Below, piece after piece: positions 550 to 22,630 of a stretch of 25,960 bases of DNA. Both the position numbers and the translations under genes were made by a program. Positions within the stretch are counted from its first letter, which is position 1. Each line of letters begins with the position of its first letter. The stretch is taken from IMG/VR virus record IMGVR_UViG_3300032296_001844, positions 1 through 25,960 of that record; one strand, 5' to 3'. The notes below the pieces were generated by a model. That model searched no databases. It saw nothing but the letters and a program-made list of their open reading frames with translations, and was not told where the DNA came from. This stretch comes from a virus.

Positions 550-1194
550 ATGAATGAAATCACATTCAAGCTAGATGATGATCAAGTATCAATATTTAAT
601 AATATTGGTGATTTGTTTGCAGTAAGTGAAGTGGATGCTGATCAAGCTGTTGAGGATTTTGCCAGAGCAGTAGAGATCGCAGTAGAGATCGACGGCAAAA
701 TTGTAAAGCAAGCTGATTACCATATTTGGATTGCTGGTAGCGAAGTAATGAAACAAGCCTATGCTAAGAAAAAAGGTGTACCCCTAGATTCTGATGCAGT
801 CAAAGGGATGTGGAAACGATTTACCCGTCGGCTGGAAGAAAATTATGCTTTAACTAAACCAGCCAGCCCGTCAGTTGAGGGTCAGAAAAAAGCTGATCAG
901 CGTACCAAAGCCCAATTAGCTATGGATGAATTAAAGGCTAAGCCTATATCTGAATTACAGGATGAGATCGCTATGCTTACGGCAAAAGCCACACCCGAAA
1001 ATTTAGCTAAAGCTACCAAGCTATCCAAAGCTATTAGCGAAAAAAATAGGGATGCCCTAAAAGATCGTATGGCGGGTATCAAAGAGCTACAAAAAGAGGT
1101 TAGTCAGGCAGTCAAAAATTGCCTTGATGAAACCTTACTTCAGGATGCTTTGCATACCCTTGAGCAATACACACCTGAAGATTCAGAAATCTAA
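550..1194 (+). CDS. Hypothetical protein, paralogue of the 2117-2695 product
   Basis: A 214-residue charged protein with no recognised domain. GGGAG at 537-541, 8 nt before the ATG, supports the start. The N-terminal third is acidic. The middle (about 75-100) reads DAVKGMWKRF, which lines up with DAIKSKWQRI in the protein encoded at 2117-2695. The C-terminal half (about 112-205) is helical, Ala/Lys/Glu-rich and clearly similar to the same protein: KKADQRTKAQLA against KRKAEQRAKARAV, followed by a TPENLAKATKLSKAISEK segment that also recurs in the 52-residue protein at 2954-3112. The shared Trp-containing block could bind nucleic acid, but this is a guess. The gene looks more AT-rich than its paralogue, which suggests different histories. 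It is followed by a hairpin and a small gene. Confidence 0.8.
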   Translation: MNEITFKLDDDQVSIFNNIGDLFAVSEVDADQAVEDFARAVEIAVEIDGKIVKQADYHIWIAGSEVMKQAYAKKKGVPLDSDAVKGMWKRFTRRLEENYALTKPASPSVEGQKKADQRTKAQLAMDELKAKPISELQDEIAMLTAKATPENLAKATKLSKAISEKNRDALKDRMAGIKELQKEVSQAVKNCLDETLLQDALHTLEQYTPEDSEI

Positions 1195-1568: not shown

Positions 1569-1597
1569 GGACATTGTGTCACCATGACACTTTGTCT
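1569..1597. repeat. 29-bp palindromic element, copy 1
   Basis: Left arm GGACATTGTGTC, spacer ACCAT, right arm GACACTTTGTCT. Same 12-5-12 layout as the other nine copies, with two mismatches within the core. It lies in non-coding DNA, about 400 bp from the nearest downstream promoter, and is followed by TTTTG and another hairpin (1602-1624). Confidence 0.8.
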
Positions 1598-1601
1598 TTT
1601 G

Positions 1602-1624
1602 TTATGCTCTGTGACAGAGCATAA
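1602..1624. repeat. Perfect 10-bp inverted repeat
   Basis: TTATGCTCTG-TGA-CAGAGCATAA, a perfect 10-bp stem with a 3-nt loop, followed by TCGGTTTT. It lies 4 bp after copy 1 of the 29-bp element. It could be a weak terminator or a protein-binding palindrome. Confidence 0.65.
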
Positions 1625-1663
1625 TCGGTTTTACTGACTTCGTATACTAGGACAAACCCTAGT

Positions 1664-1971
1664 ATTGTTCTGCTAATGTTCCGTGCCATGGAACAATACA
1701 AAGCCTTTATAATCAAGGACTTGCACGCTTTGTTCCATTTGTTCCATTTGTTCCAAAAAAATAACCTCGGGAAAAATATTTGACTAGGTTAGCAAGACCC
1801 CTCACACGGAGTGCAGGGCTATTCTTAAAACCCGCCCCGTTCCCATATTATATTATATAGAACATTAGAACATTATATCTAATCTAACCGCCAAGCCAAT
1901 ACCAGCATGGTTTTGTATTGTTCCAAGCCCACAGAACATTACGGAACATTACCCCTTTTTTCAGAACATTG
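1664..1971. repeat. Cluster of GAACATT / TGTTCC iteron-like repeats
   Basis: At least ten copies of GAACAWT or its complement (allowing T/A variation) lie in about 310 bp. TGTTCC/TGTTCT orientation: 1664-1671, 1675-1682, three tandem 9-bp TTTGTTCCA units (1729-1755), 1916-1925. GGAACA/AGAACA orientation: 1689-1699, 1859-1867, 1867-1875, 1933-1942, 1943-1951, 1963-1971. An AT-rich stretch (1845-1882) lies between the blocks. This layout resembles iteron-type replication origins or multi-site regulators, but no DnaA box or known iteron is recognised. Confidence 0.65.
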
Positions 1972-1980
1972 CAAAATAAA

Positions 1981-2021
1981 TAGGACAAGTCCTTGACATA
2001 TCCCACAGAGTGTGTTAAACT
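1981..2021 (+). promoter_or_regulatory. Strong sigma70-type promoter P1 with overlapping operator-like box
   Basis: TTGACA (1993-1998), 17-bp spacer, TAAACT (2016-2021). The -35 is preceded by TAGGACAAGTCC, an imperfect palindrome (GGAC-AA-GTCC). The 18 bp 1981-1998 are identical to 2832-2849 in promoter P2. It drives the 2117-2695 gene, with copy 2 of the 29-bp element in the leader. Confidence 0.85.
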
Positions 2022-2057
2022 GTATTTGTGAGTCGGGAATTGTTTTCGGCTCATATC

Positions 2058-2086
2058 GGACAAAGTGGCGGAGTGACACTATGTCC
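2058..2086. repeat. 29-bp palindromic element, copy 2
   Basis: Left arm GGACAAAGTGGC, spacer GGAGT, right arm GACACTATGTCC. It lies in the leader downstream of promoter P1, about 30 bp before the 2117 start codon. The left arm has a G where most copies have T, with no compensating change on the right. Confidence 0.85.
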
Positions 2087-2116
2087 TACCCTAAACACCA
2101 CTCCATGGAGATTGTT

Positions 2117-2695
2117 ATGAAATCAGTTATTAAAACCGCCGATATGCTTGCTCAATTTGACGAGCAAGAGGACGCTCAGTTGGTATCCGCAACCCTTGCA
2201 ATGGACGAAGGCGAAGACACTATCGCCGAGGCTATCGCAACCATTGCTCTAGTATTAGGCACAAAGCCTACATGGTCACGCTATGAGATGGGTCGTATTC
2301 GTATCTTTGAAACCCTCGAGCAAGCGGGCAAGACCGAGGACGCTATCAAGTCCAAATGGCAGAGAATCCGCAAAGAGTCGGGTATTGTTATCCCTGAGTC
2401 AGATGACCCCGAGGCAAAGCGGAAAGCCGAGCAACGAGCAAAGGCTAGGGCTGTTTTTGCACAGAAGTCCGATAGTGACCTTCAAACCGAGATGGCTCAC
2501 TTGTTGGCTAATCCTACCCTCGCCAAGTTGGAGTCCGCTAAGAAAATTAGCAAAGAACTTGCAACCCGCCAAAAGGACTTAGGCAAAAGTGCTAAGTCTG
2601 AACTCGTAGAATTGCGTAAGCAAGTCAAAGCGGAGATTGACTCTATCGAGGATATGGAGTTGCTCGCTGACCTCTTGGCTCAGTTGCGTTCCTAG
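2117..2695 (+). CDS. Hypothetical protein, paralogue of the 550-1194 product
   Basis: 192 residues from the ATG at 2117, chosen because GGAG (2106-2109) lies 7 nt upstream. Longer in-frame starts would run through the 29-bp element and the leader. The N-terminus is acidic (FDEQEDAQLVSATLAMDEGED), the middle has WSRYEMGRIRIFETLEQAG followed by DAIKSKWQRIRKE, and the C-terminal half is an Ala/Lys/Glu-rich helical region. From about residue 98 it lines up with the 550-1194 protein. The Trp/Arg-rich middle could be a small DNA-binding helical domain, unproven. It is the only gene between promoter P1 and the perfect copy 3 of the 29-bp element, so it may be expressed alone. It looks more GC-rich than its paralogue. 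Confidence 0.8.
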   Translation: MKSVIKTADMLAQFDEQEDAQLVSATLAMDEGEDTIAEAIATIALVLGTKPTWSRYEMGRIRIFETLEQAGKTEDAIKSKWQRIRKESGIVIPESDDPEAKRKAEQRAKARAVFAQKSDSDLQTEMAHLLANPTLAKLESAKKISKELATRQKDLGKSAKSELVELRKQVKAEIDSIEDMELLADLLAQLRS

Positions 2696-2702
2696 TAGGC
2701 TC

Positions 2703-2731
2703 GGACAAAGTGTCATCTCGACACTTTGTCC
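2703..2731. repeat. 29-bp palindromic element, copy 3 (perfect arms)
   Basis: GGACAAAGTGTC, spacer ATCTC, GACACTTTGTCC: the only copy with fully complementary 12-bp arms. It follows the stop codon of the 2117-2695 gene and is followed by CTTTGTTTTTG. This copy may act as a transcription terminator, unlike those placed before genes. Confidence 0.85.
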
Positions 2732-2792
2732 CTTTGTTTTTGCTTTGCAAAAACCCACCAGTTCCACCCCTAGCGACACAACAACCCCTCAA

Positions 2793-2810
2793 ATTGCGTA
2801 GCGACGCAAT
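2793..2810. repeat. Short perfect inverted repeat
   Basis: ATTGCGT-AGCG-ACGCAAT, a perfect 7-bp stem with a 4-nt loop in the non-coding stretch before promoter P2. There is no T-tract. Role unknown. Confidence 0.5.
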
Positions 2811-2831
2811 AAATACACAACCCCCTCAAAG

Positions 2832-2872
2832 TAGGACAAGTCCTTGACAAATACCACTAGGTGTGGTATACT
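2832..2872 (+). promoter_or_regulatory. Strong sigma70-type promoter P2, near-duplicate of P1
   Basis: TTGACA (2844-2849), 17-bp spacer, TATACT (2867-2872). It carries the same 18-bp TAGGAC..TTGACA block as P1. The spacer holds a perfect inverted repeat TACCAC-TAGGT-GTGGTA (2852-2868), likely an operator. P1 has a degenerate form (CCCAC-AGA-GTGTG). It drives the small-gene operon from 2954. Confidence 0.88.
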
Positions 2873-2906
2873 AATAGAGTGGGAATTCGCCTGCACAACT
2901 CGCAAC

Positions 2907-2935
2907 CGACAAAGTGTCATAACGCCACTATGTCC
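2907..2935. repeat. 29-bp palindromic element, copy 4
   Basis: CGACAAAGTGTC, spacer ATAAC, GCCACTATGTCC. It lies in the leader between promoter P2 and the ribosome site GGAG of the 2954 gene. The right arm has C where others have A, again without a matching change on the left. Confidence 0.85.
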
Positions 2936-2953
2936 TTAACAACGGAGATACAT

Positions 2954-3112
2954 ATGACAAGTAATCAACAAGCCCAAGTAGCAGGAACGCTACAAAAAGT
3001 ATTCATGCTCTGCTTGAAATACCCAACCCCTGAGAACCTTGCACTAGCCAAGGAAGTATCGGACGCAATTAACATTGCAAGTATCCAAACCAAAGAGCAG
3101 GCGGGTGTATGA
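2954..3112 (+). CDS. Small protein sharing the TPENLA motif
   Basis: 52 residues from the ATG at 2954, with GGAG (2944-2947) 6 nt upstream. The segment PTPENLALAKEVSDAI (about 24-39) closely matches TPENLAKATKLSKAISEK in the 550-1194 protein and the corresponding ANPTLAKLESAKKISKEL of the 2117-2695 protein. It may be a minimal version of their C-terminal helical hairpin, perhaps able to bind to the longer paralogues. First gene after promoter P2. Its stop overlaps the next start (ATGA). No known function. Confidence 0.75.
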   Translation: MTSNQQAQVAGTLQKVFMLCLKYPTPENLALAKEVSDAINIASIQTKEQAGV

Positions 3113-3345
3113 CAGCGACGCACCAATCCCACCGCTATCTATGCACGAACTGCTACGGCAGGCAAGTAGACGAGGACAGAGCCGAGCATCTCAAAACTCA
3201 TGGTCTGCGTATGACTTGCCACCATTGTGGGGAGGAGATTGCCAAAGAACGCAAGTTCACCATTGCCCCCCTAAACAAATCAAACTATGTCTGCATAACA
3301 GATATGGCTATGCTCAAGCAACTAAACCCAAAGAGGACAACATGA
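3109..3345 (+). CDS. Small zinc-finger-like protein
   Basis: 78 residues with two CxxC pairs: Cys12/Cys15 and Cys37/Cys40, spaced 21 residues, plus His27, His31, His38 and His39 around them. This is a zinc-ribbon or C4-type finger. Such small proteins often bind nucleic acid or a host protein, but no specific family is recognised. The start overlaps the preceding gene by ATGA, and its own stop overlaps the next gene in the same way, so the three are translationally coupled. The Cys spacing is the only firm functional evidence. Confidence 0.78.
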   Translation: MTATHQSHRYLCTNCYGRQVDEDRAEHLKTHGLRMTCHHCGEEIAKERKFTIAPLNKSNYVCITDMAMLKQLNPKRTT

Positions 3346-3599
3346 GCCAACCAAACGAGCCAAGATTCGAGGACGACTTCTTCAATGAACCAAGCGATGA
3401 CGACCCATACGAGCAGGAAACCCCAACCATTGAGTCTATTGCCATAACCAAAGCGTGGAATTACACCTTGGAATATGACTCCAACTCAGGCATGGTATCG
3501 CCAAGAGCCTTTTCATCAGAACTCAAAGAAGCCTATAAAGCGGGGTTTCTTGAGGGTTTTTCCCACCGCTTTGCAACCAACGACAAAGTGTCAGAGTGA
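3342..3599 (+). CDS. Hypothetical acidic protein ending inside a 29-bp element
   Basis: 85 residues from the ATG at 3342, chosen for its ATGA overlap with the previous gene. A longer in-frame form from 3075 would run antiphase through the zinc-finger gene. The first 35 residues are very acidic (DDFFNEPSDDDPYEQE). The rest has SIAITKAWNYTLEYDS and ELKEAYKAGFLEGFSHRF, a pattern of a small helical domain. The last residues, NDKVSE and the stop, are encoded by the left arm and spacer of copy 5 of the 29-bp element. Function unknown. Confidence 0.72.
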   Translation: MSQPNEPRFEDDFFNEPSDDDPYEQETPTIESIAITKAWNYTLEYDSNSGMVSPRAFSSELKEAYKAGFLEGFSHRFATNDKVSE

Positions 3600-3609
3600 C
3601 ACTAAGTCC
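3581..3609. repeat. 29-bp palindromic element, copy 5
   Basis: CGACAAAGTGTC, spacer AGAGT, GACACTAAGTCC. It overlaps the 3' end and stop codon (3597-3599) of the 3342-3599 gene. It is followed by CCAACCTAGGAGAT and then the 3626 start. Confidence 0.88.
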
Positions 3610-3625
3610 CAACCTAGGAGATCAA

Positions 3626-3844
3626 ATGACAACCTTTACAACCGAAGACAGGCAAAAAGCCTACGATATTGAGGATCAGGAAGACCGAGAGCGTATGTTG
3701 CGTGACCAAAACCGCATACTTGCCGAGGAAATTCTAAGCCTCAAAACTAAACTTGCCCAAGCCAACACTCGTGCGGACTCATGGCAAGGAGCCTATAACA
3801 ACGCTATGGACACCATGGCTAAGATGAGTAGGGCAAAAAGATGA
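3626..3844 (+). CDS. Small coiled-coil hypothetical protein
   Basis: 72 residues from the ATG at 3626. TAGGAG (3615-3620) lies just upstream and fixes the start. A longer form from 3596 would include the 29-bp element. The sequence is nearly all helix: acidic/basic residues with heptad-like hydrophobics (RMLRDQNRILAEEILSLKTKL), so a short coiled coil is likely. It begins a run of four overlapping small genes (3626-4467). No family recognised. Confidence 0.7.
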   Translation: MTTFTTEDRQKAYDIEDQEDRERMLRDQNRILAEEILSLKTKLAQANTRADSWQGAYNNAMDTMAKMSRAKR

Positions 3845-4026
3845 CGGAATATTACAAAGGGCAACGCATCAGCGAGTTGCTTGACCGCATCAAAGTCCTA
3901 CAAAAAGCCTTGGAAGAAGGTCGTGGCGAGATAGCTTCAGCCGAAGGGTTTGTAGAATTTGTGGAAGGCGAGGCGACGCTTGCGATTATGAAAGCCAAAC
4001 TCACCGCCTTGCAGGGTGCAACATGA
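3841..4026 (+). CDS. Small helical hypothetical protein
   Basis: 61 residues, ATGA overlap with both neighbours. It contains ISELLDRIKVLQKALEEGRGEI, a coiled-coil-like stretch, followed by an acidic VEFVEGEATLAIMKAKLTALQ helix. This may be a partner of the coiled-coil protein just upstream. No recognised domain. Confidence 0.68.
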   Translation: MTEYYKGQRISELLDRIKVLQKALEEGRGEIASAEGFVEFVEGEATLAIMKAKLTALQGAT

Positions 4027-4202
4027 CCGACAAGAAGATGGTTAACGAAATGATATCCAATGCTCAAGCAATGATTGTTGCCTTGGGCACTACTCGTTTG
4101 CGTGGTGTCAAAAAGCAACACATTGACCTAATCATTTTCAATTCAATCCATAACCTAGATGTGCTCATTGACCAACTTAAGGAGATACGAGATGAGTGGT
4201 AG
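4023..4202 (+). CDS. Small hypothetical protein (59 residues)
   Basis: ATG at 4023 overlaps the previous stop (ATGA). The frame stays open to TAG at 4200-4202. The protein begins MTDKKMVNEMISNAQAM and is mostly amphipathic helix, ending LIDQLKEIRDEW. Its last 11 nt overlap the next gene, whose ribosome site AAGGAG (4179-4184) lies inside it, so the two are coupled. Included because every gap in this operon is filled by such overlaps. Function unknown. Confidence 0.65.
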   Translation: MTDKKMVNEMISNAQAMIVALGTTRLRGVKKQHIDLIIFNSIHNLDVLIDQLKEIRDEW

Positions 4203-4467
4203 AAAACCAAAAATGGTAGTAGAAAAGCTAGAAGGGGTAGATATGCGAACCTATCGGGGGACTGCTGACCCACACCATGTAGCAGGTCGCACTTGCCGTA
4301 GCATAAACGAAGCCTTCAAGGGTGCAGAGTATGCGTGTGCAATAGAAAGGCACAGGGGCGACTGGTATGAGGCAGTTCGTTGGTTCCAAGATTTCTTTAT
4401 GGTTTTGTTTTGGGGCGGGTGTGCCATAGCCCTTCCAATCCTATTTGCTTTATGGCTATTCAAGTAG
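4192..4467 (+). CDS. Small protein with a C-terminal membrane segment
   Basis: 91 residues from the ATG at 4192, with AAGGAG 7 nt upstream. The N-terminal 60 residues are basic and soluble, with SGRKPKMVVEKLEG, two Cys and several Arg/His. The C-terminus is one hydrophobic helix (about 65-90, FFMVLFWGGCAIALPILFAL) ending in Lys, so it would be a tail-anchored inner-membrane protein with the basic part in the cytoplasm. The stop TAG abuts copy 6 of the 29-bp element. Role unknown. Host-membrane targeting is inference. Confidence 0.72.
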   Translation: MSGRKPKMVVEKLEGVDMRTYRGTADPHHVAGRTCRSINEAFKGAEYACAIERHRGDWYEAVRWFQDFFMVLFWGGCAIALPILFALWLFK

Positions 4468-4495
4468 GACAAAGTGTCACAACGACACTAAGTCC
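4467..4495. repeat. 29-bp palindromic element, copy 6
   Basis: GGACAAAGTGTC, spacer ACAAC, GACACTAAGTCC. It begins at the last base of the stop codon of the 4192-4467 gene and is followed by CCAACC and the AAAGGAG ribosome site of the 4520 gene. Confidence 0.9.
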
Positions 4496-4519
4496 CAACC
4501 TTAACTAAAGGAGTATGTT

Positions 4520-5062
4520 ATGAAACCCGAAGTAAACGCAGTATTGCAAGAAGTAAAAGCACAACTTGCCAACCCACAACCCACAATGCCTGACTTCAAA
4601 ACCATGTCCATCATGGAGTCTGCCAAGTGGTGCATCGAGCATGGTATTACCAAAGCCCCTGATATTGCCAACACCACAGGCAAGCAGGTCAACACTATCC
4701 ACACAGCCATGTGGAAACTCCGCAACCCCAAAAGGGTGAAGGTGCTACAACGCAGAGCCAAGAAAGCCAAGGCACTCAAGGCAGGGATAACTGTGGCAAA
4801 AGTGGCAAAAGTGGCAAAAGTGGCAAAGCCAAAGATTACCAACGGGCAATACGACGATGGTATGGATACCCCATATCGTGATGCAATCCAAAGACGGGGT
4901 GGTAGTTTTAACCTACCCCAAAGCCTAGCCAAAGCAACCCAATGGCTTACCGAGGGTGCAACCAAAACCACCAACATTCACAACGAACTCATGACAGAGA
5001 ATCACAGACTCAAGATTTTGATCGAGCATTACGAGAGCCTGCTATTCAAGGGGGGCAAGTAA
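4520..5062 (+). CDS. Basic protein with a possible helix-turn-helix and VAK repeat
   Basis: 180 residues, AAAGGAG just upstream of the ATG. About residues 32-70 (IMESAKWCIEHGITKAPDIANTTGKQVNTIHTAMWKLRN) resemble a winged or simple helix-turn-helix: a helix, a turn, then a Thr-rich recognition-like helix. A lysine-rich linker with four VAK units (encoded by 4793-4828) follows, then a C-terminal part with NLPQSLAKATQWLTEG and a final helix. A DNA-binding regulator or scaffold is plausible and it is one candidate to bind the 29-bp element, but that is inference. TAATG overlaps the next gene. Confidence 0.7.
   Translation: MKPEVNAVLQEVKAQLANPQPTMPDFKTMSIMESAKWCIEHGITKAPDIANTTGKQVNTIHTAMWKLRNPKRVKVLQRRAKKAKALKAGITVAKVAKVAKVAKPKITNGQYDDGMDTPYRDAIQRRGGSFNLPQSLAKATQWLTEGATKTTNIHNELMTENHRLKILIEHYESLLFKGGK
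4793..4828 (+). repeat. Four in-frame 9-nt tandem units
   Basis: GTGGCAAAA repeated four times (last unit ends in G), coding for the VAK repeat of the 4520-5062 protein. As the unit is a multiple of three, changes in copy number would lengthen or shorten the linker without breaking the frame. Confidence 0.85.
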
Positions 5063-6015
5063 TGCTCTATCACCAAGGCTACAACTCGGCTCGCATAAAG
5101 CCGATATTAAACTATGCTCAAGCAAAGGAACGCTATGACAAGGTAGTCCCAATCAGGGGTAGAGATAATGTCCGACCCTTGGGTGACAAGCGACGCTATT
5201 GTTGGGTAAATATTGTCAAAAAGACAGTCAGTATAGAGTCTGCGGATCACCCACTAGGTCAGTTCGCAGAAGTGTATTCGTGTGCTATCTACGGCAGGGA
5301 TATTATTGACTTCTACCCTAGTGGCGACATAGTGTTCCATGGTGAATCCTATCGGGGTGTATCGGTGATGAACATGGTCACCTATGCTCTGAATGGGCTA
5401 GCCCAAATTGGTTCAATGCGGGGCAAGTGGTATTTCGTCAACAAGAAAGGTCAGAGTTTTGTAATCCACAATGACAAGCCGACAACCTTTAGTCTTGTTG
5501 ATGGCGACTACCAACCATCTCTAAACGACAAAGAATATATTTACAGACTTAATCGTAAAGAGATGAACGGCTTGCGTAAGCAACACAAGAAGTTCCTTGA
5601 CTATGCTTGCACCGCATTGGGTATGGACGATAACCTAGGTGATTCTGATGGGTTGCAAAAGATTAAAGAGTATCTAAAGCTAAAGCAAACTGAGCTTATA
5701 CCTGCTTTTAATTGGAATAGCAAACCTGATTTCAAAGGCAATCGAACAATCATTATTAAAGCATTGGATGATTTTAATGAATCTGGGGATTTGGAGTTAG
5801 CTTACAACCTGATGCAACTACTTGCTAGATCAGCAGGCAGATACAGCTATCGGACTAGCCAAACTCATTGCTCGCCACGAGAATTAAAGAAGTTTTTTGA
5901 CGAGTTCCTAAAGCATCACTTCAGGGATAAGTTGTTTGTAAAAGAAGAAGTAGAAGTAGGTAAAGCGTTTCATGATTCAAATAAGAAGTATGTGTTATCA
6001 GAGCGGTATGAGTAG
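5062..6015 (+). CDS. Hypothetical phage protein
   Basis: 317 residues from the ATG at 5062 (AAGGGGGG upstream, TAATG overlap with the 4520 gene). A 40-residue longer form would overlap that gene out of frame and is rejected. The N-terminal two thirds is mixed beta/alpha with many aromatic residues (YCWVNIVKKTVS, DIVFHGESYRGVSVMNMVTYALNG, GKWYFVNKKGQSFVIHN). The C-terminal third is helical and charged. No catalytic motif is seen. Similar proteins occur in phages as unknowns in my recollection, without a specific family. It ends against copy 7 of the 29-bp element. Confidence 0.75.
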   Translation: MLYHQGYNSARIKPILNYAQAKERYDKVVPIRGRDNVRPLGDKRRYCWVNIVKKTVSIESADHPLGQFAEVYSCAIYGRDIIDFYPSGDIVFHGESYRGVSVMNMVTYALNGLAQIGSMRGKWYFVNKKGQSFVIHNDKPTTFSLVDGDYQPSLNDKEYIYRLNRKEMNGLRKQHKKFLDYACTALGMDDNLGDSDGLQKIKEYLKLKQTELIPAFNWNSKPDFKGNRTIIIKALDDFNESGDLELAYNLMQLLARSAGRYSYRTSQTHCSPRELKKFFDEFLKHHFRDKLFVKEEVEVGKAFHDSNKKYVLSERYE

Positions 6016-6043
6016 GACAAAGTGTCACAACGACACTATGTCT
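6015..6043. repeat. 29-bp palindromic element, copy 7
   Basis: GGACAAAGTGTC, spacer ACAAC, GACACTATGTCT. It shares one base with the TAG stop of the upstream gene and lies before the AAGGAA ribosome site of the AAA+ ATPase gene. Confidence 0.9.
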
Positions 6044-6074
6044 TTAATTAAATATAACCTTAAGGAAATTAAAA

Positions 6075-7169
6075 ATGGCTGAAGTATTGTTAAGTAAATC
6101 CGCAACCCTCAAAGAAGCAGAAGATATGATCGTTGCATTGGGTGGTGAAGGAACAATTCACTTGATGGGTGAGATGGGTGTGGGCAAGACCTCAATGCAC
6201 AAGAACATTGTGGCACGCACAGGCTATCGTGGTGTGTATATCGACGCACCAAACATTGAGTTGGGTGAGTTGGGTGTGCCTATCCCTGATCATGCTACCA
6301 AGACTACTCGCATCTATCCAAATGAGATGTGGGGTTTTCATCTTAGCGAACCACTCGTTATCTTTATCGACGAGATAACCAAAGCACCATTGGGTGTGCA
6401 GAATATGTTGCACCCTATGCTTAATCACCCAAGGCAAGTTATGGGTATCCCATTGCACAAGGATACGATAGTCGTAACGGCTGGTAATTACAGCACGGAC
6501 GGGGTCAATGATGTAATGCGTTCCCATACACGCAATCGTGTCAGCGTTGTTCACATCAAGAAACCATCCGCAGGCTTTAATGCCGACGGGTCTATCGAGC
6601 CACATTCATGGGGCGAGTGGGCAATCAAGAACGATATCGTTGCTGAGATTCTAGCGTGGGTTAAACAGAACCCCCAAGTTCTAGCCACATACCTAGACTC
6701 ATCACAGGCAGGCAACCGCCATATCTTTCAACCGAAAGAACCACAGAAGGCTTTTGTCAGCCCTCGTTCCCTTGAGAGAGCATCAAATATTCTTAAGATC
6801 CGTGGCTCTTCAACCACTAATGCAATCCTTTGTGCATTGGAAGGCACTATCGGTGCTTACTCTGCTCGTGAGTTGATGTCTTTCGTTGATGTTGCAGACT
6901 CTTTGCCTTCATGGGAAGAAATCTGTAAGAACCCCAAGACTGCTCAAGTTCCAACAAGTCCCGCCGCCTTGTGTTTGCTAGCCTTCTCAGCAGTTCAGCG
7001 TGTTGACAGAGAAACAATCAATAAGTTCTTTGAGTATCTCAAGCGGACTCCAAAAGAGTTGCAGTCTGTATTCTGCTTGACGGGTATGAAGAACGACGAC
7101 AAGAAGAAGATGTTCTTGACAAGTCAGTCCTTTGTGGATTGGATGCGTGAGAATCAATACTTGTTTTAA
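6075..7169 (+). CDS. AAA+ ATPase, MoxR-like
   Basis: 364 residues. Walker A is GEMGVGKT (32-39), Walker B LVIFIDE (94-100), sensor-1-like AGN (136-138), followed by MRSHTRNR (148-155) with candidate arginine fingers. The order and spacing fit MoxR-type AAA+ proteins, which form rings that remodel protein complexes and work with a VWA-domain partner (as in RavA-ViaA or NorQ-NorD). The VWA partner is encoded two genes downstream (7501-8700), which strongly supports the assignment. The C-terminal half (about 200-364) is helical, a likely lid and oligomer interface. AAGGAA precedes the ATG and copy 7 of the 29-bp element lies in the gap. The target is unknown: virion assembly, host complexes or replication are all possible. 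Confidence 0.88.
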   Translation: MAEVLLSKSATLKEAEDMIVALGGEGTIHLMGEMGVGKTSMHKNIVARTGYRGVYIDAPNIELGELGVPIPDHATKTTRIYPNEMWGFHLSEPLVIFIDEITKAPLGVQNMLHPMLNHPRQVMGIPLHKDTIVVTAGNYSTDGVNDVMRSHTRNRVSVVHIKKPSAGFNADGSIEPHSWGEWAIKNDIVAEILAWVKQNPQVLATYLDSSQAGNRHIFQPKEPQKAFVSPRSLERASNILKIRGSSTTNAILCALEGTIGAYSARELMSFVDVADSLPSWEEICKNPKTAQVPTSPAALCLLAFSAVQRVDRETINKFFEYLKRTPKELQSVFCLTGMKNDDKKKMFLTSQSFVDWMRENQYLF

Positions 7170-7170
7170 C

Positions 7171-7199
7171 CGACAGAGTGTCATGGTGACACTTTGTCT
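7171..7199. repeat. 29-bp palindromic element, copy 8
   Basis: CGACAGAGTGTC, spacer ATGGT, GACACTTTGTCT. It lies between the ATPase stop and the TAGGAG site of the 7217 gene. The following CAACCTAGGAGAT string is the same as after copy 5. Confidence 0.88.
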
Positions 7200-7216
7200 C
7201 AACCTAGGAGATACAC

Positions 7217-7513
7217 ATGGATGTAAAAGCAATTAGTGCAGAAGAAGTAGATGAACGGCAAAAGCAATTGAAATACATTGCCGACACTCTTGGTTCTTAC
7301 TTTGAGAAAGAGGACATGGAAGTGGGTATGGTTATGTCAGTATTGTTTACCATGCTCATCAACACCATGCTAGGGCACGCTAATGTGCCACCGCATGAGG
7401 CTATCCGACTCTTTACTCAAGCAGTATGTGACTATGTAGAGCAAGCCGAAGAAGATGAAGAATTAAATATTGAAGTTAAACCTAACGAGGAGAAAATGCA
7501 ATGGCTCAACTAA
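7217..7513 (+). CDS. Small acidic protein between ATPase and VWA genes
   Basis: 98 residues. TAGGAG precedes the ATG. Helical, beginning with KAISAEEVDERQKQLKYIADTLG, with a moderately hydrophobic middle (GMVMSVLFTMLINTMLGHA) and a strongly acidic C-terminus. It overlaps the VWA gene by 13 nt, so the two are likely made together. Its place between the ATPase and VWA genes suggests an adaptor or regulator of that complex, by context only. No family recognised. Confidence 0.72.
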   Translation: MDVKAISAEEVDERQKQLKYIADTLGSYFEKEDMEVGMVMSVLFTMLINTMLGHANVPPHEAIRLFTQAVCDYVEQAEEDEELNIEVKPNEEKMQWLN

Positions 7514-8700
7514 CAGCAGAGCAACGGATCGAACGAATCCATGTGCAACTAATGAAACACCCAAGCTTTTGTTTGTTCTCAGGCTTGTTCATGATTGGCA
7601 AGGTCGAAGTTAAAGACAAGACTTTTAGTGGCACGGCTCACACCAATGGTGTTGATGTGACCTACGACCGAAGGTTTGTCGATAGCTTGAACGACAAGCA
7701 ACTAGCCTTTCTTATCTTGCATGAGAATATGCACAAGGCTTATCGTCACTTGGTAGTGTGGCAACCTTTGCGTAAGAGGAACGCACAACTAGCTAACATG
7801 GCTTGCGACTATGTTATCAATCTGCAAATCAAAGACTATGACCCCGACAATAAAATGACGGACTTCCCAACCGACGCAAATGGTAATGTGCTAGGTCTTA
7901 TTGATGAACGCTTTCGTGGTATGGACTCAGGGCAAGTATTCAAAATCCTTGAAGAAGAACAACAAGGCGGTGGTGGTGGCGGTGGTGGTAAAGACCCCTT
8001 GGACGGACACGACTGGGAAGAAGCCCAAAGTATGTCTGAGCAGGAGAAGGAAGAAGTCGCCAAAGAAGTAGAGCAAGCTTTGCGTCAAGGCTCTATGCTC
8101 GTGGGTAAGATGGGCGGTAATGTATCTCGTGAGATTGACGAAATGCTAGTGCCAAAGGTTAATTGGCGAGAAGCCCTGCGTGATTTTGTCAAGACTGCCA
8201 TGCAAGGCAAGGACAAGACTACATGGAAACGACTGCATAAGCGGTATCTTGCCTCGGACTTAATCATGCCGTCATCTTACTCTGACAAGGTAGGTGGTAT
8301 TGCGATTGGCATTGACACATCAGGCTCTATCGGGACTGAGGAGTTGACGCAGTTCTTATCTGAGGTGAAGTCTATCTGTGATGAGGTCAGCCCTGAAGTT
8401 ATCGACATCTTGTATTGGGATACCCATGTGGCATCACGAGAAACTTATCGGGACAATGAACTTGCGGGTTTGATTGAAACTACCAAGCCTGCGGGTGGCG
8501 GTGGGACTGAGCCTGCCTGTGTGCCTAAGTTCATGAGAAAGCACGACATGAAACCTGAGTGCCTAATCATGCTGACCGACGGATACATTGGATATCAAAG
8601 CCCAAGCGACTGGACTATTGAGTCACCTGTCTTATGGTGCATCAAAGGCAATCGTAATTTTAGTGAAGCAGTAGTAGGCAAAATCGTTCATGTTGAATAA
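7501..8700 (+). CDS. VWA-domain protein with HExxH metallopeptidase-like domain (DUF2201 type)
   Basis: 399 residues. The N-terminal domain has LILHENMHKAYRH, where HENMH (74-78) is an HExxH zinc-binding signature. This matches the putative metallopeptidase part of the DUF2201 family. A flexible linker with eight Gly (156-163) follows. The C-terminal domain is VWA-like with an intact metal-ion site: DTSGS (272-276), a Thr in GGGGTEP (about 335) and LTDG with Asp360. In known systems VWA proteins pair with MoxR ATPases, here at 6075-7169. The peptidase activity is predicted, not certain, as many DUF2201 members are not characterised. GAGGAG lies upstream of the ATG at 7501. It could be a host- or capsid-directed remodelling factor. 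Confidence 0.85.
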   Translation: MAQLTAEQRIERIHVQLMKHPSFCLFSGLFMIGKVEVKDKTFSGTAHTNGVDVTYDRRFVDSLNDKQLAFLILHENMHKAYRHLVVWQPLRKRNAQLANMACDYVINLQIKDYDPDNKMTDFPTDANGNVLGLIDERFRGMDSGQVFKILEEEQQGGGGGGGGKDPLDGHDWEEAQSMSEQEKEEVAKEVEQALRQGSMLVGKMGGNVSREIDEMLVPKVNWREALRDFVKTAMQGKDKTTWKRLHKRYLASDLIMPSSYSDKVGGIAIGIDTSGSIGTEELTQFLSEVKSICDEVSPEVIDILYWDTHVASRETYRDNELAGLIETTKPAGGGGTEPACVPKFMRKHDMKPECLIMLTDGYIGYQSPSDWTIESPVLWCIKGNRNFSEAVVGKIVHVE

Positions 8701-8709
8701 GGAGAAATC

Positions 8710-8916
8710 ATGACCACGCAAATACCAAAAGGTCGTAGTAAAGATGGCAAGATAAATGTAAGCCTCAACCCTGAAACAGTTGAAATGCTTATAGAAGTAA
8801 AAGATGAGATAAGCGAAATGCTAGGGTTTAACTTAACCTATTCTCACGCAATACAACATCTTGTTAAGTTTTACACAGACAGTGATTTTTACAAACAAAG
8901 ACAAAGTGTCAAGTAG
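8710..8916 (+). CDS. Ribbon-helix-helix-like small protein
   Basis: 68 residues, AAGGAG 6-7 nt before the ATG. GKINVSLNPETVEMLIEVKDEISEML, then YSHAIQHLVKFY, fits the strand-helix-helix layout of CopG/Arc-type ribbon-helix-helix repressors (strand about 14-20, helix A 22-38, helix B 45-55). Such dimers bind palindromic DNA. The gene ends inside copy 9 of the 29-bp element (RQSVK and the stop are encoded by it), so this is the most natural candidate for a protein that binds these elements, including a copy at its own end. That link is inference. It could also be an antitoxin-like relic, but no toxin is seen next to it. Confidence 0.68.
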   Translation: MTTQIPKGRSKDGKINVSLNPETVEMLIEVKDEISEMLGFNLTYSHAIQHLVKFYTDSDFYKQRQSVK

Positions 8917-8927
8917 ACACTATGTCC
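8899..8927. repeat. 29-bp palindromic element, copy 9
   Basis: AGACAAAGTGTC, spacer AAGTA, GACACTATGTCC. It overlaps the end and stop codon (8914-8916) of the 8710-8916 gene in a different reading frame from copy 5. It is followed by CCAATCCTAAAGGAAA and the 8947 start. Confidence 0.88.
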
Positions 8928-8946
8928 CAATCCTAAAGGAAACCAA

Positions 8947-9843
8947 ATGAATAACTCAATCAGTATTGCATCATCAGCCATGCTAGTCGAACTAAGTATC
9001 AGCAGTTGGACTGCACGCAAGTTGGATAAGAAGGTATCTGCCGAGGTAGATAATGCGAAGAATACCAAAGTGTCCACAGTCAATGTGAACAAGAACCTGA
9101 TGGCAGGCACAGGTGTGTTGGAGTCAATCCTCAAATACGCATCGGGTGCTAGAACATGGCACTTGTCACAAACTCTACCTTGGTCTGACAACGGCTCACG
9201 CTTGATCCCCATGTCTAACTTCATAACATACAAGGAACAGTTGAATGTATTGGAGAACAACTACATGGCATTGGTCGATAAGTTCATCGACTCGTATCCG
9301 AACCTAGTGATCGCTGCGGCTTTTCAGTTGGGCGATTTGTTTGACAGGGCAGAGTATCCCGAAGTCCATACGCTGAGAAACAGATTCAAGTTCTCGTATA
9401 ACTTCTTCCCTGTGCCGACTGCGGGTGACTTCCGTATTGATATTAACGAAGAAGCTAAGGCGGAAATAATCGCAAACTGTGACACGGCATACCAAGAGCG
9501 TCTTAACAACGCAATGCGTGATGCTTGGGCTAGGTTGCATGACTGCCTTACCCGCATGAGCGACCGACTTCAATACGACGAGGTTCCAAGCGACGACCCT
9601 CTTACCCACGGGACTGTGCTAAAGCCACGCATATTCCGTGACTCGCTAATGGATAACGCTACCGAGCTTATCAATATGTTGAAGCACTTGAACATCACCC
9701 AAGACCCCAAGCTAGAGTTGGCTCGTGCTGAACTTGAGGCGACTATCAAGGGCTACGATGTATCGGACTTGCGTGAATCGTTTACTGCTCGTGAGGCAGT
9801 CAAGCAAAAGGTTGACTCAATCCTAGCTAAATTTAACTTCTAA
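8947..9843 (+). CDS. Possible DUF3150-type protein
   Basis: 298 residues, AAAGGA upstream. The protein starts with a Leu/Ser-rich strand region (AMLVELSISSWTARKLDKKVSAEV), followed by a long helical part with YMALVDKFIDSYPNLV and a C-terminal helix-rich region. Its length, N-terminal pattern (LVELSISSWTARK) and place beside a MoxR ATPase and VWA protein remind me of DUF3150 proteins, which often accompany such ATPases in phages. I cannot confirm this by alignment. No catalytic motif. It overlaps nothing and lies 8 bp before the next gene. Confidence 0.6.
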   Translation: MNNSISIASSAMLVELSISSWTARKLDKKVSAEVDNAKNTKVSTVNVNKNLMAGTGVLESILKYASGARTWHLSQTLPWSDNGSRLIPMSNFITYKEQLNVLENNYMALVDKFIDSYPNLVIAAAFQLGDLFDRAEYPEVHTLRNRFKFSYNFFPVPTAGDFRIDINEEAKAEIIANCDTAYQERLNNAMRDAWARLHDCLTRMSDRLQYDEVPSDDPLTHGTVLKPRIFRDSLMDNATELINMLKHLNITQDPKLELARAELEATIKGYDVSDLRESFTAREAVKQKVDSILAKFNF

Positions 9844-9851
9844 GGAAATGT

Positions 9852-10742
9852 ATGACTGGCATAATTAAAATTGACAGGTCTAACTTGTCTACTAAAAATA
9901 AGGACTTAGAGTTGTCACCTAGGCTCGAGCAGTTTCTAGCACAGGTGCAATTAGTAAGACCTCTGTTTAGTTTTGTAGCTTGTGATGACAATGGGCATTA
10001 TATAGAAACAACTTACACGCACAAAGAAGGCGGAACTGATTTTGAAGAAAAGACTGTATTGAGAGGAGTCAAAGTCTTTGAAGATGGCGAAGAACTTGGG
10101 TCTTTGTTTGGGCAAAAGGACACCTACGAAATAAAAAGTTTTCGTATTAACAAAATGCGAGGCGACGAGAACACCACCTCAACTTGTAATATTAAAGTTG
10201 CCCTACGCAAAGTTAAAAAGTTATTTGTTGGTAGAGCAGACGAAGAACTGATCAACGATATTGTAAATAGAGTTAGCACTAAGATTACTAATTTACATGG
10301 CGAAAATCATAATGAAGTTCGATGGTCTTTTGACGACGATGGCGAGGGTATAAACTATGCTCTACTAGCACATCTTGCTAGGTGCAAAGGAGAAGACACA
10401 ATAACTTTGACATCAATGCCTACTTCAATCAAAGATCAGAAGAAACATACAAACGCTTGTGCTAACTATTATGAAAGCAAAGAGTTGCAAGATTTGCTCA
10501 ATAACGCTAAAGGGTATGGTGCAACATTGCGTCCTGATGGTGCATATGTTATTTATAACTACGCTGCCAAAACGCTCGCTAGGTATAAAGACTTTACGGA
10601 TATGCCGATTGACTTCCAAACAAAGCTAGGTGTGTTCAAGCTACTTCAGTCTGGTGAGATATGCTCTTTTGGTGTGATGTTTAAACCCGAGCACTACGAG
10701 GCACAGAAGCATCCAAACACTTACTTCTACCTTAAAGAGTAA
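9852..10742 (+). CDS. Hypothetical phage protein
   Basis: 296 residues, AAGGAA upstream of the ATG. Mixed alpha/beta, hydrophilic, with a middle containing HGENHNEVRWSFDDDGEGINYALLAHLARCKGED and a C-terminal beta-rich segment (GAYVIYNYAAKTLARYKD). No known domain or catalytic signature is recognised. It is the last gene of the MoxR/VWA operon and is followed by a structured RNA-like segment and a strong terminator, so it is probably co-transcribed with that group and may act with it. Confidence 0.72.
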   Translation: MTGIIKIDRSNLSTKNKDLELSPRLEQFLAQVQLVRPLFSFVACDDNGHYIETTYTHKEGGTDFEEKTVLRGVKVFEDGEELGSLFGQKDTYEIKSFRINKMRGDENTTSTCNIKVALRKVKKLFVGRADEELINDIVNRVSTKITNLHGENHNEVRWSFDDDGEGINYALLAHLARCKGEDTITLTSMPTSIKDQKKHTNACANYYESKELQDLLNNAKGYGATLRPDGAYVIYNYAAKTLARYKDFTDMPIDFQTKLGVFKLLQSGEICSFGVMFKPEHYEAQKHPNTYFYLKE

Positions 10743-10761
10743 TATAGATATTGTATTTCCG

Positions 10762-10862
10762 ATGGTTGTTCTTGCTAGCCTAGTAGATGTAATGCAAGTC
10801 AAGGCGTAAGCCAACAATCTCCCAATACCGCAAGTGGGATGCGGAATCTACTTAGCCTACAC
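10762..10862 (+). ncRNA. Candidate structured RNA or 3' leader element with pseudoknot
   Basis: The non-coding segment has several nested pairings: GGTTGTT (10764-10770) with AACAATC (10813-10819), one G-U; CTTGC (10771-10775) with GCAAG (10794-10798); GGC-GTAA-GCC (10803-10812), a GNRA-type loop; CCGC (10828-10831) with GCGG (10841-10844). AGTAGAT in the first hairpin loop (10782-10788) is perfectly complementary to ATCTACT (10846-10852), a possible pseudoknot. A terminator follows immediately. I recognise no Rfam family. It may be a small RNA, a riboswitch-like element or mRNA-end structure. Confidence 0.45.
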
Positions 10863-10863
10863 C

Positions 10864-10888
10864 AAGCCACCTTCGGGTGGCTTTTTTT
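10864..10888 (+). terminator. Strong intrinsic terminator
   Basis: AAGCCACC-TTCG-GGTGGCTT, an 8-bp stem with a stable UUCG loop, with a run of seven T from 10882. It ends the MoxR/VWA operon. Confidence 0.93.
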
Positions 10889-10891
10889 ATG

Positions 10892-10920
10892 GGACAAAGT
10901 GTCACAACGACACTATGTCC
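10892..10920. repeat. 29-bp palindromic element, copy 10
   Basis: GGACAAAGTGTC, spacer ACAAC, GACACTATGTCC, the consensus form and the last copy in the window. It lies after the terminator and about 31 bp upstream of the -35 of promoter P3, so it is not in an mRNA leader. This favours a role at the DNA level for this copy. Confidence 0.9.
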
Positions 10921-10950
10921 TACCCTCGGGTTTGTCCTAATAAAAATAGT

Positions 10951-10978
10951 TTGCAAAACTGTAATTAAGGACTATACT
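10951..10978 (+). promoter_or_regulatory. Sigma70-type promoter P3 for the nuclease/polymerase operon
   Basis: TTGCAA (10951-10956), 16-bp spacer, TATACT (10973-10978). It lies between the terminator and the VRR-NUC gene. Upstream GGGTTTGTCC (10928-10937) is the complement of GGACAAACCC at 1650-1659. Confidence 0.72.
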
Positions 10979-18427: not shown

Positions 18428-19314
18428 TGAGCAACGTCGCTTTGTTTAACCAGCAATTACCTGACTACCTCAAAGAGGTAGAGATTGATGAAGTAACCCG
18501 TGCCTTAACGGGTGGTGGTACCGGTGTCAAACGTATTGCCCTTGGCAATAACAAGTTTATTTTAAAAGTAAACGGCGCCGAGATTTCTAAAAGCAACAGT
18601 AGCAAGATGGAGATTGTTATTGTTAATGCTTCCCCTAATGTATCTCGTACGTTCTACGCTAAAGCATGGGATCCAAAAGCTGATGCTGCCCCACCTGACT
18701 GCTGGTCTAACGATGGTGAGCGCCCTGACGCTTCTGTTAAAGAACCACAAAGCCCAATGTGTATGAACTGCCCACAAGACATAGCTGGTTCCGGTCAAGG
18801 CAGCACCAAAGCATGCCGTAAAAACCGCCGTATTGCTGTGGCTCTTGCTGCAGATTTAAACGGCGACGTGTACCAAATGACCTTACAGTCTAAGTCTATT
18901 TTTTATGATGCCAAAAAACCAGGCGATTTAGATCATATGCCGTTTGATCAGTATGTGCGTTATGTTGGCTCACAAGGTTACAACTTAAACACACTAGTAA
19001 CTGAAATGCGTTTTGACGAGGACTCAACTGTAGGCAAATTGTTCTTCCGTCCAGTGCGGTTCCTTGAGAAGGATGAATGGGAAGTAGCCAAGAAGCAAGG
19101 CGAGACTAAGACTGCTAAGTCTGCAATCACAATGACCGTAGCTCAAGTTGATGGAGTTAAAAAGCTAGAAGCTCCTGCAGTAAAAGCTGAAGCTGGAACA
19201 GTAGAAGTAATTGCTGAGCCAACTAAGCGTGTAGAGAAAAAAGCTGCTGAGCCTGCTCCTAAGCGTGATCTTAAAGCCGTAATGGGCGACTGGTCTAATG
19301 ACGACGCAGCATGA
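18427..19314 (+). CDS. Candidate ssDNA-binding protein with zinc-binding cysteines
   Basis: 295 residues. The centre has four Cys (92, 112, 115 and 130; C-x19-C-x2-C-x14-C), fit for one zinc ion, in a beta-rich region with SSKMEIVIVNASPNVSRTFY. The C-terminus is a flexible Ala/Lys-rich linker (about 225-280) and an acidic tail, DWSNDDAA, as in many ssDNA-binding proteins that recruit partners by their tail. The gene lies just upstream of the primase-helicase, where phage ssDNA-binding proteins are usual. The OB fold itself cannot be judged without structure prediction. If not that, a phage zinc-binding replication accessory is likely. Confidence 0.7.
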   Translation: MSNVALFNQQLPDYLKEVEIDEVTRALTGGGTGVKRIALGNNKFILKVNGAEISKSNSSKMEIVIVNASPNVSRTFYAKAWDPKADAAPPDCWSNDGERPDASVKEPQSPMCMNCPQDIAGSGQGSTKACRKNRRIAVALAADLNGDVYQMTLQSKSIFYDAKKPGDLDHMPFDQYVRYVGSQGYNLNTLVTEMRFDEDSTVGKLFFRPVRFLEKDEWEVAKKQGETKTAKSAITMTVAQVDGVKKLEAPAVKAEAGTVEVIAEPTKRVEKKAAEPAPKRDLKAVMGDWSNDDAA

Positions 19315-19544
19315 GTCTTAGAGGGTATAGCTTTCGTCTTGTAAAAGCCAACCAAGCTGCTGATTCCAAAAACATTGGAGTCCAGCTTGGGCGGTATTGT
19401 ATTGCCAACGATATTCCGGTATCAACCATTGCTACAAAGTTAGGCGTAACCCGCATGACTATATACAACTGGTTTACCGGAGTTGGCGTACCCAACAAAG
19501 ACAAAGTTAGGAAAATAGAAAAATTACTTACTAAGTATAACTAA
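19311..19544 (+). CDS. Small helix-turn-helix (XRE-like) protein
   Basis: 77 residues, ATGA overlap with the gene before and TAATG with the primase gene. Residues 22-55 (GVQLGRYCIANDIPVSTIATKLGVTRMTIYNWFTG) fit an XRE-type helix-turn-helix: helix 2 STIATKLG, turn, recognition helix RMTIYNWF. The N-terminus is basic. It probably binds DNA, as a small repressor or replication regulator. Its target is unknown. Confidence 0.78.
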   Translation: MSLRGYSFRLVKANQAADSKNIGVQLGRYCIANDIPVSTIATKLGVTRMTIYNWFTGVGVPNKDKVRKIEKLLTKYN

Positions 19545-22604: not shown

Positions 22605-22630
22605 CCCCGCCCCCTCGGCGGGGTTTTTTT
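22605..22630 (+). terminator. Intrinsic terminator between convergent blocks
   Basis: CCCCGCC-CCCTC-GGCGGGG, a 7-bp GC stem with a T7 tract, ends the rightward operon. The leftward gene ends at 22629, so this hairpin also lies at its end, but on that strand the T-tract is poor. Confidence 0.93.

Follow-up and report, generated by a model that had tools for sequence, protein, structure and literature searches.

A two-shell palindrome at gene junctions of a phage early/replication block, probably a dispersed operator with lineage-specific recognition sequences

We analysed a 25,960-base IMG/VR fragment, here called the window, which carries ten copies of the palindromic element GGACAAAGTGTC-N5-GACACTATGTCC at gene junctions. 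Comparison with related viral sequences suggests that the element is probably a dispersed DNA operator for a phage-encoded regulator of the early/replication operon, with recognition codes that differ between lineages. The copies are confined to one block, keep their positions and their arms among relatives, show arm deviations that run against covariation, and are replaced by other palindromes at the orthologous junctions of sister lineages.

Ten copies in one block of conserved gene order

The ten copies all lie on the plus strand at the coordinates given in an earlier note on this DNA, and they are not expected from base composition, with 0 copies expected in 100 dinucleotide shuffles.

Copy 1, 1569..1597, +: between the terminator at 1497-1516 and a non-coding iteron-like stretch; orthologous in 15 records
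Copy 2, 2058..2086, +: ~30 bp past the predicted start of the promoter at 1993-2021; in the 5' leader of gene 2117-2695
Copy 3, 2703..2731, +: 8 nt past the stop of gene 2117-2695; perfect palindrome, then CTTTGTTTTT; also scores as a terminator
Copy 4, 2907..2935, +: ~28 bp past the predicted start of the promoter at 2844-2872; leader of gene 2954-3112
Copy 5, 3581..3609, +: includes the stop codon of gene 3342-3599; in the leader of gene 3625-3843
Copy 6, 4467..4495, +: begins on the last stop-codon base of gene 4192-4467; leader of gene 4520-5062
Copy 7, 6015..6043, +: shares its first base with the end of the preceding stop codon; in the ATPase gene leader
Copy 8, 7171..7199, +: leader of gene 7217-7513; reverse asymmetry
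Copy 9, 8899..8927, +: contains the stop codon of the ribbon-helix-helix (RHH)-like gene; leader of the DUF3150-like gene
Copy 10, 10892..10920, +: between the terminator at 10864-10883 and a promoter at 10950-10978

As had been described, seven copies (2, 4, 5, 6, 7, 8 and 9) have a stop codon or promoter on one side and the ribosome site of the following gene on the other. In two pattern scans of viral contigs, at least 17 related virus records shared the element and its junctions, with 103 copies in total, of which 87 were distinct; single-copy weak matches (G010, G012, G013, G020 and G021) were excluded as chance. All sequences are metagenomic, and the relatives' genes are simple open reading frame (ORF) calls. 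Records of 55-67 kb held 8-10 copies, all within one ~10 kb early/replication block, and the ten junctions were orthologous across 16 records. The gene order of the block is conserved, running from two paralogous first genes (550 and 2117) through small genes, an AAA ATPase and a DUF2201 metallopeptidase to the RHH-like gene, the DUF3150-like gene, a VRR nuclease and a DNA polymerase. Copy 8 is missing in two relatives in which a different gene follows the ATPase gene, and in some relatives copy 3 also lies between a terminator and the next promoter. The element was not among the listed repeats of KPP25, the best polymerase relative among Pseudomonas phages, and a keyword literature search found no paper describing it.

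The 12-5-12 layout given earlier is correct, and 13-3-13 with a free N3 centre is a tighter description, since 85 of the 103 copies have A at position 13 and 85 have T at position 17. The skeleton, GACA-N3-TGTCA-N3-TGACA-N3-TGTC, contains four TGWCA half-sites with an 8-bp period and forms two nested dyads, or shells, that is, a palindrome built of two smaller palindromes. Copies 1, 3 and 8 have T in the right arm at the stem centre and the remaining copies carry the A-A mismatch, in agreement with the first description; at copies 1 and 8 the asymmetry is reversed (T.T and G.T at the mismatch pair).

Constraint on the arms and the RNA stem

Between relatives, the arms differed by 3-10% as against 13-37% at fourfold-degenerate sites, and in the more distant pair L052/L057 by 13% as against 48%. 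The central N3 drifted roughly neutrally, at about the fourfold-site rate, with the closest pair somewhat above it (0.27 vs 0.13); a special process such as a hypervariable loop or gene conversion is not required.

Pairing between the arms was lower than in shuffled arms. Among the 87 distinct elements, 952 of 1131 cells were paired compared with 977 +/- 5.6 after shuffling, and every one of 2000 shuffles was at or above the observed value. The deviations of the two arms were negatively correlated. At half-position 6 the canonical A occurred in exactly one arm in 69 of the 87 elements (Fisher p = 8e-7), and the canonical arm switched between orthologues while the mismatch persisted (copy 2 in L060, copy 7 in L052 and L057, copy 1 in L051). 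The same positions were kept in both arms (G2 A3 C4, G8 T9 G10 and C12), and T11 to G was tolerated in either arm without compensation. Single-arm changes in copies 2 and 4 are uncompensated, as first reported. The covariation test proposed in the earlier note upheld its statement that the conservation calls for more than RNA pairing, through the anti-covariation, the constrained arms and the neutral loop. Since shuffling the arms improves their pairing, selection does not act to maintain an RNA stem, and conservation of such a stem is ruled out by the anti-covariation. The behaviour of the arms matches what half-sites for a protein would show.

An RNA hairpin acting in mRNA leaders, with a role in RNase III-type processing, in mRNA stability or in the control of translation, is nevertheless conceivable on several grounds: transcribed copies are able to fold (-7.6 to -18.6 kcal/mol), most stand in leaders directly before ribosome sites, one position of the stem repeatedly shows the internal A.A mismatch, and copy 3 resembles a terminator. 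We consider this function improbable, given that shuffled arms have fewer broken pairs than the real ones, that the mismatch survives change on both sides (A.A to T.T), that the loop is free, and that copies 1, 3 and 10 do not adjoin a start codon. The change of both arms in sister lineages, described below, fits either an RNA or a DNA palindrome.

Junction 3 is the exception on pairing. A perfect palindrome followed by a T-run occurred in five of ten orthologues there and in one of 90 copies elsewhere, and in L060 a matching double change (GTGGC/GCCAC) keeps the stem perfect. In the window, only copy 3 has the full G+C-rich stem with a T-run of an intrinsic terminator; this terminator-like copy may serve in both roles. 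One arm is non-canonical at most sites, and plausibly it is kept imperfect so that a perfect stem would not terminate transcription inside the operon, except at copy 3, where termination would be wanted.

Other palindromes at the same junctions and candidate readers

The earlier note had held that homologous phages without the element at the same junctions would speak against it. A search with the DUF2201 protein collected 64 syntenic loci, in which this applied to the sequence and not to the site. The exact element is restricted to the lineage with an RHH-like protein that shares at least 62% identity with that of the window; the sequence is absent in sister lineages, and another palindrome stands at those junctions.

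L124, L125, L127: GACAnAGTTAC-N5-GTAACTnTGTC
L110, L112, L119: GGACAAACTTAG-N6-CTAAGAATGTCC
L117, L120, L131-L133: ACTTgGCGACA-N3-TGTCGCtAAGT
L106, L108, L113, L114: AACAAnnCGACA-N4-TGTCG...TGTT
L109: CACAaatCAAGA...TCTTGaaaTGTG
L111: CACAaaTCGAA-N5-TTCGAtatGTG
L137, L141, L147, L150: GGA...ATCGACA-N3-TGTCGAT...TCC
More distant loci: CCTAACA-N1-2-TGTTAGG or cGTAAAA-N-TTTTACg

Another example of a sister-lineage palindrome at the same junctions is ACTTGGCGACA-N3-TGTCGCTAAGT. L123, L126 and L128, which have the same RHH-like protein as L124, L125 and L127, showed too few copies in the stretch covered for a palindrome to be assigned. Exact copies of the sister palindromes numbered up to 22, compared with at most 3 in shuffled loci, and an independent scan of four sets gave zero expected matches for three and 0.1 for one. 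Placement at junctions was significant in most sets (e.g. 12/13 vs 0.23 and 11/13 vs 0.18) and not significant in L106, L113 and L140. Where DUF2201 is at least 59% identical, most sites have the two-shell architecture. Three core genes of the block anchor these comparisons.

6075..7169, +: MoxR-like AAA ATPase; a palindrome of the locus's own set at its leader junction in 23/23 representative loci
7501..8700, +: DUF2201 metallopeptidase/VWA-like protein; query used to collect the 64 syntenic loci
8947..9843, +: DUF3150-like protein; palindrome at its leader junction in most loci

Rhizobium phage RHph_TM3_14A (L050), a cultured distant relative with a similar gene order, carries ~48 copies of GTTACC-N5/6-GGTAAC in the stretch read, many of them inside genes, and is a possible cultured model for palindrome sets.

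Four proteins of the window were considered as readers of the element.

2117..2695, +: helical 192-aa protein encoded between copies 2 and 3; candidate regulator
550..1194, +: 214-aa paralogue of the 2117-2695 protein; mutual hidden Markov model matches between the two
8710..8916, +: RHH-like protein, 68 aa; overlaps copy 9; weaker candidate
19311..19544, +: Cro/XRE-like helix-turn-helix protein, 77 aa; PF01381 (HTH_3) above cut-off; weaker, third candidate

The best candidate appears to be the first-gene family formed by 2117-2695 and 550-1194; since the family is without a known fold, its assignment as reader is one that we infer. No locus that combined a DUF2201 identity of 59% or more with 9 kb or more of sequence upstream lacked the family, and among the loci with a palindrome set it occurred in 26 of 31, the RHH-like protein in 18 of 31. 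Within a set, identity of the 2117 family was higher in the N-domain than in the C-domain (68 vs 59%; L112/L119, 85 vs 55%; L147/L141, 72 vs 49%), and between sets the N-domain was the less conserved (19 vs 24%), a contrast of the kind expected of a putative specificity domain.

The RHH-like protein was present in all 10 other records of the window's palindrome set returned by the profile scan, and its K-x-N-x-S is invariant in the expected strand. As sole reader it was first favoured, when the profile scan, run over all viral contigs, returned element-bearing contigs only, and was weakened by seven sister loci that have palindromes and lack it; the fold call is itself weak (predicted local distance difference test score, pLDDT, 62; structure search without match). 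The Cro-like protein was rejected as the specificity reader, its recognition helix VSRMT.Y.WF being nearly constant across differing palindrome sets, and a TetR-family reader was likewise set aside, with no match over cut-off in nine phage records.

A pattern scan also found the same skeleton with outer T/A bases in seven bacterial contigs, and a TetR-family gene adjoined it in four of the six bacterial loci with neighbouring ORFs listed. Sites resembling TGACA-N3-TGTCA-N3-TGACA-N3-TGTCA lie upstream of TetR-family genes in L041, L044, L045 and L040; in L041, L044 and L045 the site is divergent from the gene of an NAD(P)-binding-like protein. The bacterial sites support an operator reading of the skeleton, not kinship. 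The adjoining TetR-family genes could also suggest that the phage exploits the operator of a host regulator of this kind. We regard that as distinctly improbable, because the bacterial sites have outer T/A and not G/C and number one per locus in the four TetR cases, and because recognition sets vary between closely syntenic phages, which would be better suited to a phage-encoded reader.

Proposed function and comparison with known systems

Under the operator reading, a phage-encoded DNA-binding protein would read the element and co-regulate the early/replication operon. Bound to copies 2 and 4, ~30 bp past their promoters, and to copies 5-9 in intercistronic leaders, it may act as a roadblock that stops or pauses RNA polymerase, so that the operon would be turned down as the regulator accumulates. 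Sister lineages retain the architecture and the junctions, with the recognition sequence swapped as a set. The promoters preceding copies 2 and 4 are the two best sigma-70-type sites in the promoter scan.

1993..2021, +: promoter-like TTGACA-17-TAAACT; GGACAAGTCC immediately upstream
2844..2872, +: promoter-like TTGACA-17-TATACT (11/12); GGACAAGTCC immediately upstream

The two copies of GGACAAGTCC, at 1983-1992 and 2834-2843, adjoin the -35 boxes, and a CCAC..GTG(T)GG-like sequence lies in both spacers; these sequences are possibly the site of a second regulator. A promoter inside the element was rejected, as the -35-like TGACA has a properly spaced -10 at copy 7 only and the scan found none at copies 5-8.

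Integrase (PF00589) and ParA-type ATPase (PF13614) were both absent in seven records. Since neither gene was detected in the long records, the phages are probably lytic, and the element set is therefore more likely to time early transcription than to maintain lysogeny. More tentatively, we suggest that the first-gene family (2117/550) has a fast-switching N-terminal reading domain matched to the two-shell palindromes and that all copies change together at a specificity switch, as a previously undescribed operator system of a large uncultured, probably lytic phage group.

Several observations weigh against this interpretation. In the promoter scan, no promoter-like site stands near copies 5-8, and those near copy 9 lie on the opposite strand only, so a classical promoter operator does not account for copies 5-9. 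The 2117 protein has no recognisable DNA-binding fold (AlphaFold2 pLDDT 79; structure search without usable match), and the contrast between its domains could also arise from ordinary lineage divergence with domain exchange. Because the palindrome set tracks phage phylogeny, coevolution with one protein is inseparable from shared descent. Among the distant lineages, with DUF2201 identities of 42-50%, many of the palindromes are intragenic and searches often do not detect the 2117/550 family, and the test of junction placement rests on a simple gene caller.

The location of the copies also bears on a role in DNA architecture, replication or partition, in which the element would be the site of a parS-, iteron- or nucleoid-like protein and not of a transcription regulator. 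Between copies 1 and 2 lies a non-coding, AT-rich stretch (1660-1990) with many GAACATT/TGTTCC repeats, which looks like an iteron-type replication origin. The block includes this stretch and the polymerase gene, the copies are spaced every 0.2-2 kb, palindromes also occur inside genes in distant relatives and in RHph_TM3_14A, and an RHH-like fold is characteristic of certain centromere-binding proteins. Such a role is in our judgement unlikely: four long records have neither a ParA-type ATPase nor an integrase, placement at gene junctions keeps ribosome-site spacing, and the positions after terminators and after promoters are conserved. A parABS system in particular was set aside, as the partner ParA-type ATPase of a centromere site was absent from the seven records.

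Rearrangements at the element could instead mark it as a junction for gene-cassette exchange by homologous or site-specific recombination. In L033 (5052, sense orientation) only one element stands where sequence from upstream of copy 2 meets sequence from downstream of copy 5, which looks like a deletion of the intervening genes by recombination at the element, or could be a misassembly at the 29-bp repeat. In L060 (5489-5721) junction 3 has two elements, each following TAGTAGGCTC, with an extra 57-aa gene lying cassette-like between them, and the two relatives without copy 8 have another gene at that site. We hold this explanation to be highly improbable, since no recombinase was found (the tyrosine recombinase expected beside an att-like site being absent in the seven records), the core genes for the ATPase, DUF2201 and DUF3150 retain the element without moving, and replacement of the whole set in sister lineages is unexpected for a passive junction.

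If the more tentative reading, with a switching N-terminal domain, is true, these phages would have a stoperator-like specificity system outside lysogeny. A code switch in an operator set requires about ten sites to change together, and at the junctions shared by this one gene order some ten codes can be seen. How a regulator and its scattered sites come to change specificity, a question of long standing, thereby becomes testable by comparison and binding assays. A first-gene protein family without any annotation would also gain a plausible function.

Elsewhere in the window, two further features were recorded.

395-433: direct repeat TAATGCGACACACCAGCCAA, upstream of gene 550
22629-25904, -: end of a very large protein with an LPD39 domain and DarB-like similarity, cut by the contig end

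Among known systems, RHH operators (Arc, MetJ, Omega) offer one likeness, as four short, regularly spaced half-sites suit two RHH dimers; the element has such half-sites and the RHH-like gene overlaps copy 9. Against this, the RHH identity of the 68-aa protein is of low confidence, and its gene is missing in several palindrome-bearing sister lineages. Two-dimer TetR-family operators in bacteria share the GACA-N3-TGTCA-N3-TGACA-N3-TGTC skeleton upstream of TetR-family genes, but are single copies beside the regulator gene, and the nine phage records have no TetR-family protein above cut-off.

Cluster A stoperators serve as binding sites for a phage regulator and can halt elongation (PMC6550527, PMC9283540). 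Like them, the element occurs in many dispersed copies, mostly in one orientation, with a lineage-specific consensus that follows phage relatedness (PMC6550527). Stoperators differ in being asymmetric (PMC6550527), whereas the element is a two-shell palindrome with reverse asymmetry at copies 1 and 8; they belong to temperate phages and have a monomeric immunity repressor as their binding protein (PMC9283540), whereas the phages studied here have no detected integrase and confine the element to one early block.

The earlier note had named the start-associated sequences (SAS) of cluster K mycobacteriophages as the closest concept, which comes near, the best match being the extended SAS (ESAS) (PMC3203893). 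ESAS are inverted repeats upstream of starts in the non-structural half of the genome, with the left arm nearer to consensus, departures that lend no support to RNA pairing, and arms that are each symmetric (PMC3203893). The element likewise occurs as several inverted repeats of imperfect symmetry that precede gene starts in the non-structural half, is conserved by gene family, has its left arm nearer to consensus, and departs from it in ways that do not support RNA pairing. Self-symmetric arms (in some ESAS subclusters), a consensus that differs between subclusters and a suggested role as DNA-binding sites are further likenesses (PMC3203893, PMC11373665). Other defining features of ESAS were not found: ESAS arms are 17 bp with a variable spacer, whereas those of the element are 12-13 bp with a fixed one; ESAS are coupled to the 13-bp SAS GGGATAGGAGCCC overlapping the ribosome site, and no SAS is present in the element leaders; ESAS overlap a SigA-like promoter, whereas promoter-like sites lie outside the elements here; and the sequence and the phages are unrelated, with copies also after terminators. 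By analogy, the element would work like cluster K ESAS and cluster A stoperators while being a member of neither, and the parallel with the still unexplained ESAS hints that junction operators may be a recurrent phage strategy.

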